DNA of 64,000 bases from Cristatella mucedo. Lineage: Eukaryota > Bryozoa > Phylactolaemata > Cristatellidae. The stretch lies in assembly GCA_009760855.2 (NCBI GenBank), contig WPIO01000012.1:6631501-6695500 (forward strand), given 5' to 3'. Numbering within the stretch: the stretch's first letter is position 1; each line of letters begins with the position of its first letter. Under the pieces are notes generated by a model that saw nothing but the letters and a program-made list of their open reading frames with translations, was not told the origin of the DNA and did not search any database. Positions 11,461 through 63,178 of the stretch are shown here, in pieces. Both the position numbers and the translations under genes were made by a program.

Positions 11461-11649
11461 GATGTCAGTGTGCTGCTTTGCGGTTTGCTAATATCATTTA
11501 CTGACTCTATATTCTGATTCAATTCTATTGTTCAATAGTATTCAATAGTTAATTAAAATAAATTTAATGTGCTCGCATGCCTGCTGCATAGCAATGCACT
11601 GCTGGAAATTTATAAAGTTTCTCTGCTTAACATTGTATGCACTTGCTGC

Positions 11650-13125
11650 TGAGACACCGAAAATGACGTGCAAAGCATGCTTCAGGTGTACAACAGCCTA
11701 CTTAAGAATGCAAACATGGGTAGAGTATCTGCTTGTTTTGCTCGATCTTTCGGCAGCTTTTGATACTATCGATCACCAAGTCCTTCTAGAGCACCTCTCA
11801 TCTCGCCTAGGCATCACTGGCGCTGCTCTGCTACAGTTCAGGTCCCATCTTAGTAGAAAACTCAAGAGTATTGATGTGACTGAACAAAGGTCATCCAAGG
11901 AAATTCTGAAATATGGGGTACCTCAGGGCTCCGTGCATGGTCCTGTTCTTTTCAAGGTTTGTACTCTCCCTCTTGCCCATGTGATTGCCAAGCACAATCT
12001 AAGCTTTCATTTCTATGGGGATGACACTCAGTTGTACCTTTGCTTTGATTCCTCCCAGCCCTTGAGCACGTCGAATTCTCTTTACTCCCTTGCTGCATGT
12101 ATTGATGACATCCGCACATAGATGGAAGCAAATTTTCTTGTATTGAATTATGATAAAACAGACTTGCTAGTTATGGGTAACCAAGTTGAATTCAGAAACT
12201 GGAAAGGCTAAAAGCCCAAACTCCGGTCTGCCAGCATATCTCTTTTTGAAACTGCACGAAATCGAGGTGCTATGTTCCAAAGTGACCTTTCGTTAGAAGA
12301 CCACATCAGCTCCACGGTCAATTCTACCTACTTTCAGCTACATAACATTGCTAAAAATCGGGCTTCTTTAGACAGGGATACTAAATCCAAGTTTCTCCAT
12401 GCATTTGTGACATCCCGCATTGACTTTATTGTAACTCACTGCTTGCTAACCTACCGGCCTGCGCAATCAGGTGCTTACAGCTGATGCAAAACTCTGCAGC
12501 TAGGCTTGTCTGTCGTGAGCTTGGAAGTTGCCACATCACACCACTTCTCGACTACCTGCACTGGCTAATAATAAAGCAACATGTCGACTTCAAGGTTTTG
12601 TCGCTCACTTTTAGGTCACTTCATTCTTTGCCCCCAGCCTATCTCTCAGATCTACTACCCCATCAAGCCAAGCATCATACCACCCACTTTTCGGAATCCA
12701 ACCGTTTACCATTAACTCGTACAAACTTCAAATCCTTTTGAGATCGTGCCTTTAGCTCTATGCTCCCAAAGCTTGGAGCTCACTCCCGACTTGCGTCATG
12801 ACATCCCCTGGCTTGACCACATTTATAAAGAAACTAAAAATGCACCTATTTAGCACAGCATTTAGTGGGTCCCTGCGATTCGTCCTTTATGTGTTTATGA
12901 GTTCTGGCACTGTGCAGGCTGCCACTAACCACACTTGCATGCTGAGCCTGCGTCACCCCTAACCATGCTATTCCTGTTGTTTATTGAGCATGGTGACACT
13001 AGCCATTCAATCATTTTTTCTTTGAATCAGATGTAAAGCACCTAGAAAGAGATTGAGTTCTCTGAGAGCGCCTTGTTAGGCGTGTTATTATTATTCCTAA
13101 TTTTATTAAAGACTATTTAAGACTA
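11650..13125 (+). mobile_element. LINE-A copy with RT core, 5'-truncated
   Basis: Encodes 'LLDLSAAFDTIDHQVL', 'GVPQGSVHGPVLF' and 'FYGDDTQLYLCFD', i.e. RT motifs of the L2/CR1 group. The catalytic box reads YGDD instead of YADD. The reading frame is broken near 12120 and 12484. The end shows the hairpin (GTAAAGC, AGAGATTGAGTTCTCT, GAGCGCC at about 13034-13075) and an ATTATTATT tail. It lacks the endonuclease region, the usual 5' truncation of non-LTR insertions. Confidence 0.9.
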
Positions 13126-15349: not shown

Positions 15350-17950
15350 CCCTTCGCCTCAGATTATGTCCAGCCGGCTTCGACGAATTACCGCAATCCA
15401 CAGCAATCCACCTCGATCCATTCGAATTACGCCGACATCGACCAGACATGATGCCAAGCTCAAATTTTGCAGTTATAAAGTAGTACACTTTCGAATTTAT
15501 CTGCCCACCAAATTGCATGATGCTGCATGAAGGCCGACTTATGCAAATGAACTTCGAAGCCGGACGCATGGACCTCAACCCACCACAATCCATTCTAGTT
15601 CCCGTCAAATCCACCAAGCATCAGCTGCACACACCTCTAAACAATTCGGAATATCAAACTAAGCTATGCCTACAATATACCCAGAAGGTTTCGCACGCTT
15701 CTGCTCACGCGTTCTCACAATGTCCACTGAAATAAGATTAGGGTGGTCCAGGCCAATATCGAAATCCACAGCAATCCACTTTATTCCAACAGGGAACCAA
15801 AGAAATCATGTTCGAAAAGCTCCTTGTTTGGTTGCATATACGACAGAGTATACACGAACGAGAAATCTAAATGGCTTCGTCACCCAGCATCTACCAGTCT
15901 ATTTTTAATGAACCGTTATAGATTTCTGCATTTTCTCAGGCCGTTGCTGTTGATTGCCGCGCATCGACCTCGAACATACATTCGCTATTGGATGAAAGAA
16001 TGCGGTTGCACTTTTAATACTGAGCACTGTAATAAGCTAATAAAATCGGATCTTCTCCAACCAGCTTTGTTTGTAATTGTAACCGACAATCGCAGATTCC
16101 TGTATAGTCTTGGGCAATTGCCGTTGATAGCCATGCACTTCCCAAGGTTTAACGCACAAAATGACAGCGTGTGCGCCCAGAGTGAGCGTTATGTGGTAGG
16201 ACAATTGCAAATTCAAACGGCCGATTTCCAGCAAATTTGAAAGTATAGTAGAGGCCGGCGGATTGCCATCGACTGCTGTGCATTGCCCTCGATTGTGTTT
16301 TTATTGATTGTTTAAAGGCATGTGGCCAGGACTTTTAATTCAGTGCATTGCAATAAGCGTGAAAAGTTGGAGCGTCTCTCTGCAATTGTCGGTCCATTTG
16401 TAACTGACCGTTATGAATTGGCGTATTTCTCCGGGCCATTGCCGTCAATTGCCGTGCGTTTCAGTAGATTGAACTCACACAATGGGTGAAAATTATGCAG
16501 GCATGCAGGTATATTTTACGTGGAACGAGAGCTGCAGTTTACTGTAGCCAATCTTGTCAATTTTCCACTGATTCTGCTTTCGGCCCCTACCATGGCTGTG
16601 GAATGCCGTGCATTGCTGACAGTTAACGAGGAAAGCATTTTAAAAGCGCAACGGCTTTACTTTGGACGCAGTGGAATTTTATACGTAATGACAATTGGGG
16701 CTTCGAGCTGCCAAGTTCTCGTCAATTTGAAAGTCTTACAACTTCACTTTTAGCACAAGGAAATGCGAAATGCGATGACAATAAGCACTTCATGCAGGCA
16801 ATTTGTGGACGACTAGCCATGGATTGTAGTAGATTACTCATTCAAACCGAGCCGTTGCCATAGATTGCCATGCATTGCCCGAAATTTTACTGATGCAATT
16901 GATTAAAATGATGTGCGACTTTAAACAGTGTGCTTTTTAACATGCATTCAATATTGGAGCATTGCGAAACGGATTTCAGGGTATTTTGCATGGGATTGCT
17001 GTAGATTTCAGTATTGGCCCGGGCCATTGCAGTCAATTGCAGTGCATTGCTTCCAAATGGTTGAGACAATTGTAGTAATATTATGCTAGTACACAATAAC
17101 CGAAGATTAGAGCACCATGCAATCATTATTCGAGCTTAAAGTGAACGTACTTTGGTCGTTTTGCGGGTAATAGTGGAGTGATGTACTGGCCTGGCAGTTG
17201 CAGTCGATTGCAGTGCATTGCTGCAGAATGGTCGAGGCAATTACAGTAAAGTTATGCGAGTTCACAATAACCAAAGAGTAGAGCAGAATGAACTCATAAT
17301 TAAAGCTTCTAGTGTACTCGTTCTGGTCTCTGTGCGGCGGATTGCCGCGGATTGAGGTGGATTGCAGTTTGGGACCGGGCTGTTGCAGTCGGTTGTAATT
17401 CATTGCATGATAACTCTTGTGCATAATCGGGTAAAACTTTTTGGGTGCACTTTGAACTGAGTAGTCCTGTATGCAACGTCAGTTAGAGATTCGCGATGAC
17501 AATTTGATGATGAATTGCAGTGGATTGCAATAGTTTCCAAGGTCATTTCAGGCGATTGCTGCCCATTGATACAGTGCGAGGATGCACAATTTTTTTTTAT
17601 TTTACGTTGTTTCGCACTAAACACAGTGCACTTTAATATGCAATAAAAACTGGAGCTGGGCCCAATGTATTTCTGTTGTTATGCAGTGGATTCGGTGGAT
17701 TTACTTGGATTGTGGTATTGGTCCGGGTACTACACCGATCACCTTCAATTCTTATCGGAATACCCTGACCACCTTGCCAGTTCGAATAGCGATAGAGCTG
17801 CCATTTACAAAATAGGCTTTCTAAGACTCCACTTTATTCAATGTTAAATGAATGACCGTTCAGATTTCAAATTTAGAGCTCACGTGACTGCAAGTTCTCG
17901 ATTGTAAGCTATTGCCTTCCATAGCCCTGGCCAGCATGCCTCGGCAAATG
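15350..17950. repeat. Diverged tandem array, ~170-190 bp units with 10-bp-phased ATTGC boxes
   Basis: Each unit contains a 50-70 bp block in which ATTGC/GATTGC-type boxes recur every 10 bases (for example at 16990-17050, 17335-17405 and 17510-17570), often around a central CCGGGCC-like step. Block ends (GCATTGC or its variant) fall near 15965, 16140, 16470, 16616, 16878, 17050, 17221, 17405, 17573 and 17760, mostly 146-194 bp apart. The inter-block part often contains AGTGCACTTTAA-like and AATAA-rich stretches. The first part (about 15350-15800) has the same boxes in reverse orientation (GCAATCCAC). Open frames across the array are not conserved between units, so it is not coding. It could be an old satellite or a relic of a minisatellite-bearing element. 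Confidence 0.75.
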
Positions 17951-18344: not shown

Positions 18345-19195
18345 GGAATGCAACGTATATTAATGCAAAGTATCTCCGTCTGTAACTTCTCGAAGCCATA
18401 GAGACCATGTGGGTGTTACGGAAGAGAGTTGTGTATAACGCATTCAACCGCCGAAGCGACTTTCGGTACGCAATCGATAGCCAACAGACTTTGTCTCACA
18501 CAACAAAGTAAAAGTGGTAAGCCTAGCAGAGTCAGGAGAGCAGTTGAGGTAGTTAGTAGCATGGAAGTAGCAGGTCAGGAACGCTGAAAACGATGAGCCA
18601 TAGTCGGCAGCAGGAGAGTAGTTGTCGTTTCGTAAGAATTGTGGAAGCGAGTTCCACAGTCCAGGACCTGCAGAGCTAAAGCTTCTATCGCCAACGAACT
18701 TTCAGTCGTGGAATGGAATACCTAATTTATTGTCCACTCAGGACCTGAGGGCGCGAACAGGCTGAAACTGTTGCAGCAGGTCAGCTAGGTACGAAGAAGC
18801 CAAGCGGTGGCGGGCGTTGTGGGTCAGCGTAAGAACTTTGCTCTGTATCCTTTGCTTAACCGGCATCCATCCTAGCTCTTTTAGCAAAGGAGACACGTGC
18901 TCAAACCTCTGGGGCTTGATTGCGCATAGAAAGAGATTGAGTTCTCTGAGGGCGCTTTATCAAGTGCATTATCAGCATTATCACTAATATTGAAGACTAG
19001 CCTTGCAGCCATATTCATAGTCAGCTGCAATGGCCTAGTTGCTTTCTTTGGTAGCCCAGCCAAAAGGATATTACAATAATCAAGCCGAGACAGAACTAAG
19101 AAGCTAGTTCAATTTTTTGCATGCCACTGTGGAAGACAGCTGCTAATCTTAAACAGGTATCGGACGTGATGGCTAGCTGTAGAATTAGTCTTCTG
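18345..19195 (-). mobile_element. LINE-B: ORF2 C-terminus and 3' UTR
   Basis: Minus strand, continuing the element at 20331-22760 after the nested LINE-A. It encodes 'LVLSRLDYCNILLAGLPKKA', then 'FEHVSPLLKELGWMPVKQRI' and 'GDRSFSSAGPGLWNSLPQFL', the typical end of an L2/CR1-group ORF2. The 3' UTR (18540-18345) contains 'TCTGTTGGCTATCGA' and ends near 'GTTACAGACGGAGATAC'. A short LINE-A hairpin with its tail (about 18928-18990) interrupts the coding part. Confidence 0.8.
18925..18992 (+). mobile_element. LINE-A hairpin-only insertion inside LINE-B
   Basis: GAAAGAGATTGAGTTCTCT, GAGGGCGCTTTATC and an ATT-like tail, without any LINE-A ORF, break the LINE-B frame between 'AARLVFN' and 'FEHVSPL'. 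It is either an extremely truncated LINE-A or the tail of a SINE-1. Confidence 0.65.
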
Positions 19196-20330
19196 AATGA
19201 TGTGATTGCCAAGCACAATCTAGGCTTTCACTTCTATGCGGATGACACTCAGTTGTACCTTTGCTTTGATCCCTCCCAGCCTTCGAGCACCTCAAATTCT
19301 CTCAACTCACTAGCTGCATGCATTGATGACATCCGCACATGGATGGCAGCAAATTTTCTAAAACTAAACGATGATAAACCTAACTTACTTGTTATGGGCA
19401 AACCCAGTGTGATTCAGAGATTGGAAAGGGTGACGCTCAAAATTGGCTCTGCCAGCATATCTCCAGTTGAATCAGCTCGAAATCTAGATGTCATATTCCA
19501 AAGCGACCTTTCGTTAGACGACCATATCAGCTCCACAGTCAAATCCGCCTATTTTCAGCTTTATAACATTGCTAAAATTCGGGCTTGTTTAGATAAAGAT
19601 ACCACATCTAAGTTGGTCCATGCATTCGTGACATCCCGTCTCGACTTCTGCAACTCACTGCTTACTGGCCTACCAGCATGTGCGATCAGGCGATTGCAGC
19701 TGGTGCAAAACTTGGCAGCTAGACTTGTCTGTCGTGAGTGTCGCAGTTGCCACATTACTCCACTTCTCGCCGACCTGCACTGGCTATCAGTCAAGCAACG
19801 GATTGACTTCAAGGTTTTGTCGCTCACTTTTAGGTCCCTTCATTTTATGGCTCCAGCCTATCTTTCAGATATACTACCCCATCAGGCCAAGCATCGTACC
19901 ACCCGCTTTTCGGAATCCAACAGTCTAGAAATACCTCATACAAACCTTAAATCCTTTGGAGAACGTGCATTTAGTTCGTATGCTCCCAAAGCCTGGAACT
20001 CCCTCCCGACCTGCGTCAGAACATCCCCTGACCTGACCACATTTAAAAGGAACCTAAAAACACACCTATTTAGGACAGCATTTAGTGGGTCCCTGTGATC
20101 CGTCCTTGATGTGCTTATGCGTGCTGACACTGCATGCTGCCACTAACCACATTCGCATGCTGACGCTGTGCATGTCACCCCTAACCATATTATTCATTTT
20201 GTTTGTTTTTCAAGCATGATTTTACTTACCATTTAATTGCATTTCACTTTGCAGCAAATTTAAAGCGCCTAGAGAGAGATTAAGTTCTCTGAGGGCGCTT
20301 TATCAAGTGAATTATTATTATTATTATTAT
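19196..20330 (+). mobile_element. LINE-A copy nested in LINE-B, long open frame
   Basis: One frame runs from the RT box 'FYADDTQLYLCFD' to 'LKTHLFRTAFSGSL' (stop at about 20098), one of the best preserved LINE-A frames here. Motifs include 'IDDIRTWMAANFLKLN', 'SRLDFCNSLLTGLP' and 'APKAWNSLPTCVR'. The 3' UTR follows, with the hairpin stems AAAGCGCC (20262-20269) and GGCGCTTT (20294-20301), then an (ATT)n tail. It sits in the opposite orientation to the host LINE-B and has no obvious target duplication. Confidence 0.92.
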
Positions 20331-41710: not shown

Positions 41711-42289
41711 TGCCGTTTGTTCGCACAGCAGAGAGCCAGCCGATGCCCCCAACACCGACAGTCGATTACCTTGAGGGGGGTCCGCACAAGGTGAAGGTCA
41801 TTACTTCGCCTTCCGCTTCATGCAGCTGTTAGCCCTCGCCAAAAACTTGTCATTGAAACTCTTGTCATTTTAATTGTCTGTGTAGTTTGGTCGCACAGCA
41901 AAGAGCCAGCTGATGCCCCCAAAACCGACAGTTTATTACCAACGCACGGAGCCGAAGAGCGAGCGGCTCCCTTCGGCCCCTACTCCCACTCGACTCCCCC
42001 CTCCTCCACGGCTCCAGTCCGCCATCTCGCCACCAGCAGGTTACCGGCCTGTGTCCATGCCACATCGCAGGCGGACCACAGCTCTGCACCGGCCGACCCT
42101 GATGGTGAATCCGCCATCTGGCCACCAGCTGGTTACCGGCCTGTGTCCATGCCACATCGCAGGCGGACCACAGCTGTGCACCGGCCGACCCTGATGGTGA
42201 ATCCACCGTCTGGCTACCATCGGGTTACTGGCTGGTGTCTATGCCACATCACACGCTTATCAGAGGAGCCGGCATACACTCAAACTACA
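41711..42289 (+). mobile_element. TIR element copy 1 (579 bp), with 5-bp target duplication
   Basis: Inserted in LINE-A and flanked by AAGGT on both sides (41706-41710, 42290-42294). The right end is CAAACTACA; the left end TGCCGTTTG is an imperfect partner. A second left end TGTAGTTTG is at 41881. Between them (41770-41880) lies DNA that also flanks copy 2 at 49184-49295. The interior has three units of about 92 bp (from about 42018, 42110, 42202) with CATCTGGCCACCAGCTGG. No transposase gene; it appears non-autonomous. The open frame over it is repeat-derived. Confidence 0.7.
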
Positions 42290-46191: not shown

Positions 46192-47900
46192 AATAATAAT
46201 AATAATTCACTTGATAAAGCGCCCTCAGAGAACTCAATCTCTCTCTAGGCGCTTTACATTTGCTGCAAAGTGAAATGCAATTCAATGGTAAGTAAAATCA
46301 TGCTTGAAAAACAAACGAGATGAATAATATGGTTAGGGGTGACATGCACAGGGTCAGCATGCAAATGTGGTTAGTGGCAGCATGCACAGTGTCAGCACGC
46401 ATAAGCACATCAAGGACGAATCACAGGGACCCACTAAATGCTGTCCTAAATAGGTGTGTGTTTTAGGTTCCTTTAAAATGTGGTCAGGTCAGGGGATGTT
46501 TTGACGCAGGTCGGGAGGGAGTTCCAGGCTTTGGGAGCATATGAACTAAATGCACGTTCTCCAATGGATTTAAGGTTTGTATGAGGTATTTCTAGACTGT
46601 TGGATTCCGAGAAGCGGGTGGTACGATGCTTGGCCTGATGGGGTAGTATATCTGACAGATAGGCTGGAGCCATAGAATGAAGGGACCTAAAAGTGAGCGA
46701 CAAAACCTTGAAGTCAATCCGTTGCTTGACTGGTAGCCAGTGCAGGTCGGCGAGAAGTGGAGTAATGTGGCAACTGCGACGCTCACGACAGACAAGCCTA
46801 GCTGCAGAGTTTTGCACAAGCTGCAATCGCCTGATCGCACATGCTGGTAGGCCAGTAAGCAGTGAGTTGCAGAAGTCGAGACGGGATGTCACGAATGCAT
46901 GGACCAATCTAGACGCGGTATCTTTATGTATACAAGCCCAAATTTTAGCAAAATTATGTATCTGAAAGTAGGCAGACTTGATTGTGGAGCCGATGTGGCC
47001 GTCAAACGAGAGGTCACTTTGGAACGTTACACCTAGATTTCGAGCTGATTCAACAGGAGATATGCTGGCAGAGCCAATTTTGAGCGTTAGCCTTTCCAAT
47101 TTCTGAATCACACTGGGTTTGCCCATAAATAATAAGTTAGTTTTACCATCGTTTAGTTTAAGAAAATTTGATGCCATCCATGTGCGGATGTCATCAATGC
47201 ATGCAGCAAGTGAGTTAAGAGAATTCGAGGTGCTCGAAGGCTGAGAGGGATAAAAGCAAATGTACAGCTGAGTGTCATCCGCATTGAAGTGAATGCCTAG
47301 ATTGTGCTTGGCAAACCCGTCAGCAAGAGGGAGAGTATAAACCGTGAAAAGAACCAGATCTAGCACAGAGCCTTGAGACCCCATATTTCAGAGGTACCTC
47401 GGAAGATCTTTGTCCATGACGTCAATACTCTGGAGTCTCCCACTGAGATAGGACCTGAACCATTGCAGAGCAGTGCCAATGATGCCCAGGCGAGATGAAA
47501 TGCGCTCTTGAAGAACTTTGTGATCGATAGTATCAAAAGCTGCCAAAAGATTGAGCTAAACAAGCAGAGATACTCTACCCATGTCTGCATTCCTAAGTAG
47601 GTCGTTGTACACCCTAAGCAATGCTGCTTCTGTGGAGTGATTAGCTCTGAAGCCAGACTGGAACTTTCTAGCAAGGTTTGAAGTTTCAATATAGTAGTTT
47701 AGCTGGTCCGCACGACCAGCTCCAGTGTCTTTAATGGGAATAGTGGAAGGGAGACTGGGCGGTAGTTACTCAAGTTCTCTTGGTCTAGTGTTGCTTACTT
47801 GAAAAGCGGCCTGACTACAGCTTTTTTTAAAGGTGCTGGGACATGACCTGAGGCTAATGACATATTAATGAAGGATTGGGCATAACCGGATAGGTGGTAC
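46192..47900 (-). mobile_element. LINE-A copy, longest RT in the window
   Basis: An (AAT)n tail at about 46190-46206, hairpin, 3' UTR, then on the minus strand an open frame (47384-46473, 303 codons) with 'MGSQGSVLDLVLFTVYTLPL', 'HFNADDTQLYICF', 'RTWMASNFLKLNDGKTNLLF', 'SRLDFCNSLLTGLPACAIRR'. Upstream (47700-47390) it reads 'FQSGFRANHSTEAALLRVYN' and 'AAFDTIDHKVLQ' across one stop or frameshift. The catalytic box is NADD, so tyrosine is lost. A useful reference for the LINE-A consensus. Confidence 0.92.
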
Positions 47901-49295: not shown

Positions 49296-49758
49296 TGTAG
49301 TTTGGTCGCACAGCAAAGAGCCAGCCGATGCCCCCAAAACCGACAGTTTATTACCAACGCACGGAGCCGAAGAGCGAACGGCTCCCTTCGGCCCCTACTC
49401 TCCCTCGACTCCCCCCTCCTCCACGGCTCCAGTCCGCCATCTCGCCACCAGCAGGTTACCGGCCTGTGTCCATGCCACATCACAGGCGGACCACAGCTCT
49501 GCACCGGCCGACCCTGATGGTGAATCCACCATCTGGCCACCAGCTGGTTACCGGCCTGTGTCCATGCCACATCACAGGCGGACCACAGCTGTGCACCGGC
49601 CGACCCTGATGGTCCGCCTGTGATGTGGCATGGACACAGGCCGGTAACCAGCTGATGGCCAGATGGTGGATTCACCATCTGGCCGCCATCGGGTTACTGG
49701 CCGGTGTCCACGCCACATCACAGGCTCATCAGAGGAGCCGGCATACGCTCAAACTACA
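49296..49758 (+). mobile_element. TIR element copy 2 (463 bp), with 5-bp target duplication
   Basis: Perfect 9-bp inverted ends TGTAGTTTG (49296-49304) and CAAACTACA (49750-49758), flanked by GTCTG on both sides (49291-49295, 49759-49763). The interior carries the same ~92-bp units as copy 1, plus one unit in inverted orientation (49611-49674 against 49522-49585) that makes a long hairpin. No coding capacity of its own. Confidence 0.75.

Positions 49759-62099: not shown

Positions 62100-63178
<1,079 letters not shown>

Follow-up and report, generated by a model that had tools for sequence, protein, structure and literature searches.

A probable Mutator/Foldback-type transposon remnant carrying 10-bp boxes in units of about 175 bp in the bryozoan Cristatella mucedo

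Transposons of the Mutator-like (MULE) superfamily create target-site duplications of 8-11 bp, mostly of 9 bp, and the FB elements of Drosophila combine 9-bp duplications with inverted repeats composed of nested 10-, 20-, and 31-bp repeats. The portions of the literature used here describe further elements of this kind. Most arthropod MULEs have G or C in their first three terminal bases (PMC13359780). Muta1 and other MULEs of Aedes aegypti have duplications of 8-9 bp, short tandem repeats within their long inverted repeats, and hundreds of non-autonomous derivatives with a variable repeat number; 9-15-bp subterminal tandem repeats are reported in 10 of the 12 long-TIR families of A. aegypti, and Muta1, with nine 12-bp copies, was termed a type 2 Foldback (PMC5225508). 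The Tm1 Mutator/Foldback family of root-knot nematodes is characterized by 9-bp duplications and 13-15-bp tandem repeats (PMC3169594), Tetris of Drosophila virilis was placed with Mutator on the basis of its duplications (PMC4079207), and Galileo has extra sites in its repeats that are bound by its transposase (PMC3688188).

We analyzed a window of 64,000 nucleotides (the whole stretch of C. mucedo DNA under study), in which an earlier note had described positions 15350-17950 as a satellite-like array of nucleosome length carrying ATTGC boxes in a 10-bp register. This feature is almost certainly one decayed copy of a dispersed DNA transposon family. The best explanation of the whole, and a likely one, is that the window holds a dead, internally deleted, non-autonomous cut-and-paste copy of the Mutator-like (MULE)/Foldback type. 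The interval proposed earlier covers the repeat, but its borders have to be redrawn, since the repeat starts at 15376 and homology to other copies ends at about 17734. The transposon remnant thus occupies 15376-17734 on the plus strand (2,359 bp, right end lost), as defined by homology to 20 copies read with their flanks, and the tail of the original interval (17735-17950, no strand applicable), in which no homology to the element was found, lies outside it.

The remnant opens with the outer terminal motif GGCTTCGACGAATTACC (15376-15392, plus strand), which has one mismatch to the family sequence GGGTTCGACGAATTACC. Because the reverse complement of 15376-15846 is found, whole or in part, to the right of the core in all 20 copies read, this plus-strand segment is the left terminal inverted repeat, and it follows that the right end of the window copy has been lost. 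Beside the left end, 10-bp boxes lie on the minus strand (GCAATCC, that is, GGATTGC on the other strand) at 15393-15440, and a further opposite-strand box is located at 15771. Two junctions, to which strand does not apply, interrupt the copy. At 15845-15846, 682 bp of copy L030 are absent, about 185 bp of which represent a nested repeat; L033 and L025 also are without the stretch missing here. At 16727-16729, an internal deletion has removed about 0.4 kb found in most copies read. Between the junctions lies an interior part of diverged ~175-bp units with boxes (15845-16729, plus strand; blocks near 15938, 16112, 16257, 16433, and 16587), followed by an interior/right-arm part with the clearest units, of about 171 bp (16727-17734, plus strand; blocks near 16849, 17021, 17192, 17377, and 17540). 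The longest stop-to-stop frame in the window copy has 169 codons, and two window frames over the element had no Pfam match at an E-value of 0.01. Neither an Rfam family at its gathering score nor a tRNA was detected in the window. Elsewhere in the window we observed three reverse-transcriptase fragments (Pfam RVT_1; 11567-12121, 19121-20098, and 46473-47384), the first alone passing the curated cut-off, a (CA) run of 430 copies at 62316-63175, and, at 42018-42250 and 49433-49613, two arrays separated by 7 kb in which nearly identical 92-bp units are repeated in tandem.

The family was assessed by searching the genome, which comprises 572 Mb in 688 contigs. For window positions 16900-17760, scoring covered 40 of the 1306 candidates from a first look and all 40 were long matches, one being the window itself and the other 39 having 78-82% identity; since 40 candidates were scored, this count is a lower bound. 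The longest stop-to-stop frame across nine copies, the window copy included, has 198 codons. With at least 40 genomic matches and no longer frame, the segment is multicopy and non-coding, as the earlier note had supposed, and not a single-copy coding sequence. All 20 copies read with flanks have window positions 16727-17734, or most thereof, in common. Over the core, their identity to the majority sequence is 89-96%, that of the window copy is 86%, and the mean pairwise identity is 87%. These values are consistent with a history of spread followed by decay, with the window copy as an older or more diverged member of the family.

Family members start with GGGTTCGACGAATTACC or a close variant and finish with its reverse complement. 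The terminal 26-mer, with at most two mismatches, occurs at 480 places in the genome (246 forward and 234 reverse), with 0 for the backward control, and the terminal 24-mer had 0 matches in viral contigs and prokaryote genomes, collections in which records close to this genome may be lacking. Ends of this type also delimit nine additional loci that were retrieved; eight are elements of 2,753-4,140 bp (with L034 measured from the outer of its left ends), and L032 is the remaining one. Among the first twenty copies (L009-L028), four are two-ended (L011, L021, L025, and L027; 2,766-3,602 bp), and the 16 copies without a recognized left end were not placed in the two-ended set. The resulting 12 two-ended copies span 2.75-4.14 kb. 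The mean identity of their flanks is 0.657 at 9 bp versus 0.25-0.33 at 4-8 and 10-13 bp; flanks with shuffled partners gave a mean of 0.277 and a maximum of 0.454 in 2000 trials. At least six of nine positions match in eight of the 12 copies, and the duplication of L011 is perfect (9/9). It is poor in the remaining four, L025 (2/9), L031 (4/9), L033 (5/9), and L041 (4/9), although by eye a matching CGGTTTAGGG lies a few G ahead of the left end of L031. This count leaves out L032, the whole locus of which is palindromic, as well as the inner left end of L034, which was copied together with its flank, and three weak left-end matches with five mismatches (L015, L017, and L021 at 326). A satellite, that is, a head-to-tail array without transposon ends, is ruled out by the element ends and the 9-bp duplications, which identify the locus as a transposon copy; Tandem Repeats Finder, a check suggested by the earlier note, listed no array at 15350-17950.

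Two of the loci display large inverted duplications. In L034 (G000:C77:6131110-6134990), positions 428-1016, which contain the inner left end and 46 bp of flank, match the right end and its flank (3834-3246) in inverted orientation at 99.5%. The inner left end sits inside an older left end (91), the 9-bp duplication of which still matches at 7/9. Judged from this arrangement, a Foldback-type element has recently undergone a templated inverted duplication here. In L032 (G000:C332:10095910-10097920), the entire 2-kb locus, including element ends and flanks, is a 98% palindrome, which may be either a true inverted duplication or an assembly artefact.

We assign the family, with high confidence, to the Mutator/Foldback type because its duplications are 9 bp long, its ends start with GGG, and its inverted repeats are long and repetitive. 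As in MULEs, the target duplication is 9 bp (in the 12 copies with the mean identity given above), the family ends begin with GGG, hence with G/C at the terminal bases, and long terminal inverted repeats are present. Their lengths vary from 73 to 834 bp, with only 86 and 73 aligned positions in L033 and L040, respectively, 415 in L029, 655 in L030, 401 in L031, and 834 in L042, where the identity is 97%; those of L034 and L041 are rearranged. Being internally repetitive and variable in length, they have the structure of the Foldback class.

The genome contains 59 MULE-domain hits. No transposase was located between family ends, as none of 155 ends (of the 480) was within 32 kb of these hits; the autonomous partner may be missing, extinct, near ends outside the 155, or of another type. 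Five MULE loci were read, and three of them (L035, L038, and L039) have inverted repeats composed of boxes of about 14-15 bp. In L035 and L038, these repeats are about 120-130 bp long and consist of ~15-bp boxes around GACAAAATGTCCC, and in L039 they are shorter and broken, with ~14-bp boxes around GGACAATTCGGAGC. The flanks of L035, GTTTCAGCG and GTTTCAGAG, by eye form an apparent 9-bp duplication. Two proteins were scanned: that of L035 has FLYWCH and MULE domains, and that of L036 a MULE domain only. Around the L036 transposase an inverted repeat was not found, and the inverted repeat of L037 is a repeat common in the genome that is not built from boxes. The ~185-bp repeat nested in L030 (about 971-1158) was also observed near the MULE loci L036 (1604-1786) and L037 (34-222 and 4857-5039). 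The box-built repeats of L035, L038, and L039, loci that resemble Tm1/Phantom-type Foldbacks, indicate that the same building principle exists on transposase loci, with other box letters and another period. It is improbable that the element is instead a non-autonomous member of some other superfamily that makes 9-bp duplications, such as Rehavkus, the transposase of which has a PHD finger. For Rehavkus, duplications of 9 bp are described together with a minisatellite and with inverted repeats of 26-400 bp (PMC6446971), but MULEs with box-built ends reside in this genome.

The two-level repeat within the Mutator/Foldback-type element, of 10 bp and about 175 bp, is real. Autocorrelation of 15350-17950 gave lag 10 as the top value, followed by 186 and 171, and for 16900-17760 lag 171 came first and lag 10 second. 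Neither the lag-10 value nor the maximum within lags 165-191 was reached by any of 500 dinucleotide-preserving shuffles of 15376-17734 and 16900-17760. The peaks that the earlier note expected at 10 and about 175 bp are thus present, the longer period being about 171-175 bp, as are all five blocks that it named. ATTGC is about six-fold enriched in 15350-17950 (26 observed versus 4.0 expected from the window average), and GATTG occurs 16 times versus 3.3 expected. Ungapped repeat families within the interval are mostly 60-85% alike. Parts of the original description needed correction. The period of about 171-175 bp holds, but the unit length is variable, with block-to-block distances in the window copy of 174, 145, 176, 154, 262, 172, 171, 185, and 163 bp (145-262 bp) instead of a spacing of about 170-190 bp. 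Likewise, the boxes do keep a 10-bp register, but rather than a single row of steps they form two groups about two turns apart with a GC-rich center. This design is evident when 43 units taken from three copies are combined into a majority sequence of 175 columns, which has the core GGATTGCAGTGGATTGCGGTATTGGCCCGGGCCATTGCAGTCGATTGCCGTGCATTGC and box groups flanking a GC-rich palindrome. Block matches on one strand numbered 22 in L029, 15 in L030, 20 in L031, and 21 in L033, and on the other strand 9, 9, 4, and 7, respectively; shuffled L030 as a control gave 0.42 block positions. The boxes are oriented outward at both ends, those of the left end being on the opposite strand.

By analogy, with Galileo's extra transposase-binding sites in its repeats as the model, the boxes may be repeated transposase-binding sites, a proposal to which we give even chances. 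A Mutator-type transposase made elsewhere would bind the repeated GGATTGC-type boxes. With successive boxes in a run spaced by one helical turn, several transposase subunits would sit on the same side of the helix, and a site that is short and weak would gain sufficient affinity and specificity. Once the ends had paired, the element would be excised and then reinserted with a 9-bp staggered cut. The ~175-bp unit would have increased in number within the element through unequal duplication. A less likely account, which still deserves weight, accepts the same transposon and takes the boxes for by-products: the 10-bp repeat and the ~175-bp unit would have expanded through slippage and unequal exchange, and any binding role would be confined to the outermost end. 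The 43 units compared were picked by a 30-nt motif, which biases conservation inside that motif, and therefore the part outside it alone was judged. Between units, the half of the block outside the selection motif has 0.82 bits and the rest 0.65, and 62 equal windows elsewhere have at most 0.79. Between units, no other stretch is as well conserved as this half, which argues against a by-product origin, as do the outward box orientation kept at both ends and the other box sequences that MULEs of the same genome carry in the same place. In favor of such an origin, block distances differ, often by about 10 bp, the step that a slipping 10-bp box would produce, most of the interior displays no other sign of function, and the boxes are not conserved above the rest between resident copies. 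Selection on the boxes was not seen in that comparison (0.935 for boxes versus 0.929 for the rest, a value equaled by 21% of shifted masks). Equal conservation is expected if copies are dead after insertion, and the resident copies thus give no evidence of box function. Having hundreds of ends and very regular boxes, and sharing its genome with box-built MULE loci, this family is a good test bed for transposase binding to the boxes.

Within blocks, where boxes are clustered one helical turn apart, phasing is certain. Between blocks, the evidence is suggestive. The A/T dinucleotide signal peaks at 10.18-10.32 bp in all eight copies (scan of 9.6-11.4 bp), and in L030 a period of 10.27 bp tops the full spectrum. 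Block distances, counted between 140 and 200 bp with all others dropped, spread over 142-195 bp and cluster near 154, 165, 175, 185, and 195 bp, the commonest being 174-175 bp (28 of 80). In a test of these distances, the observed value was reached by the following numbers of 1000 random sets: 1 in L029, 222 in L030, 7 in L031, 23 in L033, 66 in L040, 78 in L041, 14 in L042, and 159 in the window copy, with best periods from 9.6 (the scan edge) to 10.94. When 0-9 bp were removed at the borders of blocks, the coherence of A/T dinucleotides fell beyond chance, defined as at most 10 of 200 sets reaching the observed value, in two of eight copies, L029 (6) and L031 (1); the counts were 52 in L030, 153 in L033, 22 in L040, 46 in L041, 27 in L042, and 121 in the window copy. 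As the copies are homologous, these per-copy tests are not independent. We consider it quite improbable that the whole body of this cargo-less transposon, and not its ends alone, is a helically phased binding platform, a reading in which the block spacings of about 154, 165, 175, 185, and 195 bp are near whole helical turns. If it were true, the element could be covered or wrapped along one face by a single transposase or host filament, and end pairing could be coupled to chromatin wrapping.

The chromatin function implied by the earlier note, a nucleosome-phased satellite or an array of bZIP (C/EBP-type) binding sites, is extremely unlikely. It draws on the unit length near 175 bp and on the A/T dinucleotide peak shared by all eight copies, but as an explanation of the sequence itself it is refuted by the transposon ends and 9-bp duplications. 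The block distances are variable and the coherence tests mixed, and a nucleosome role is unsupported beyond the unit length. A C/EBP site is palindromic, with inverted half-sites (TTGCGCAA), whereas the boxes are direct repeats. The palindrome TTGCGCAA was found 0 times in nine copies, in which ATTGCGCAAT with at most one mismatch occurs four times altogether, and an array of C/EBP-type sites is rejected. The locus also carries a warning that nucleosome-length periodicity in raw sequence can stem from a transposon's own repeat units.

The Mutator/Foldback-type elements described here represent a new family of a known kind; a literature search, judged mostly from listings, revealed no published family recognized as identical. 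The FB elements of Drosophila are likened to it by general description and not by sequence. The comparisons that follow refer to the portions of the published descriptions used here. Galileo shares the long, internally repetitive inverted repeats, but belongs to the P superfamily and has a THAP-domain transposase (PMC3688188). Tetris is similar in its Foldback structure, 8-10-bp duplications, lack of an ORF, lack of a detected autonomous partner, and long tandem units (about 220 bp in Tetris) within the inverted repeats (PMC4079207); in the material considered, no 10-bp box layer is named for Tetris, and its units also form satellite arrays. Tm1 likewise has 9-bp duplications, variable-length inverted repeats of short tandem repeats, and gene-less members (PMC3169594), but differs in its asymmetric 7-bp outer motifs, in repeat sequence and period, and in having known transposase-bearing members. 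The A. aegypti MULEs share 8-9-bp duplications, long repeat-built inverted repeats, and hundreds of non-autonomous derivatives. In contrast to Muta1, which has ends of 145 bp and carries a transposase (PMC5225508), the present family has a 10-bp box repeat arranged in ~175-bp units that fill most of a gene-less element of 2.75-4.14 kb, and this is its special trait.
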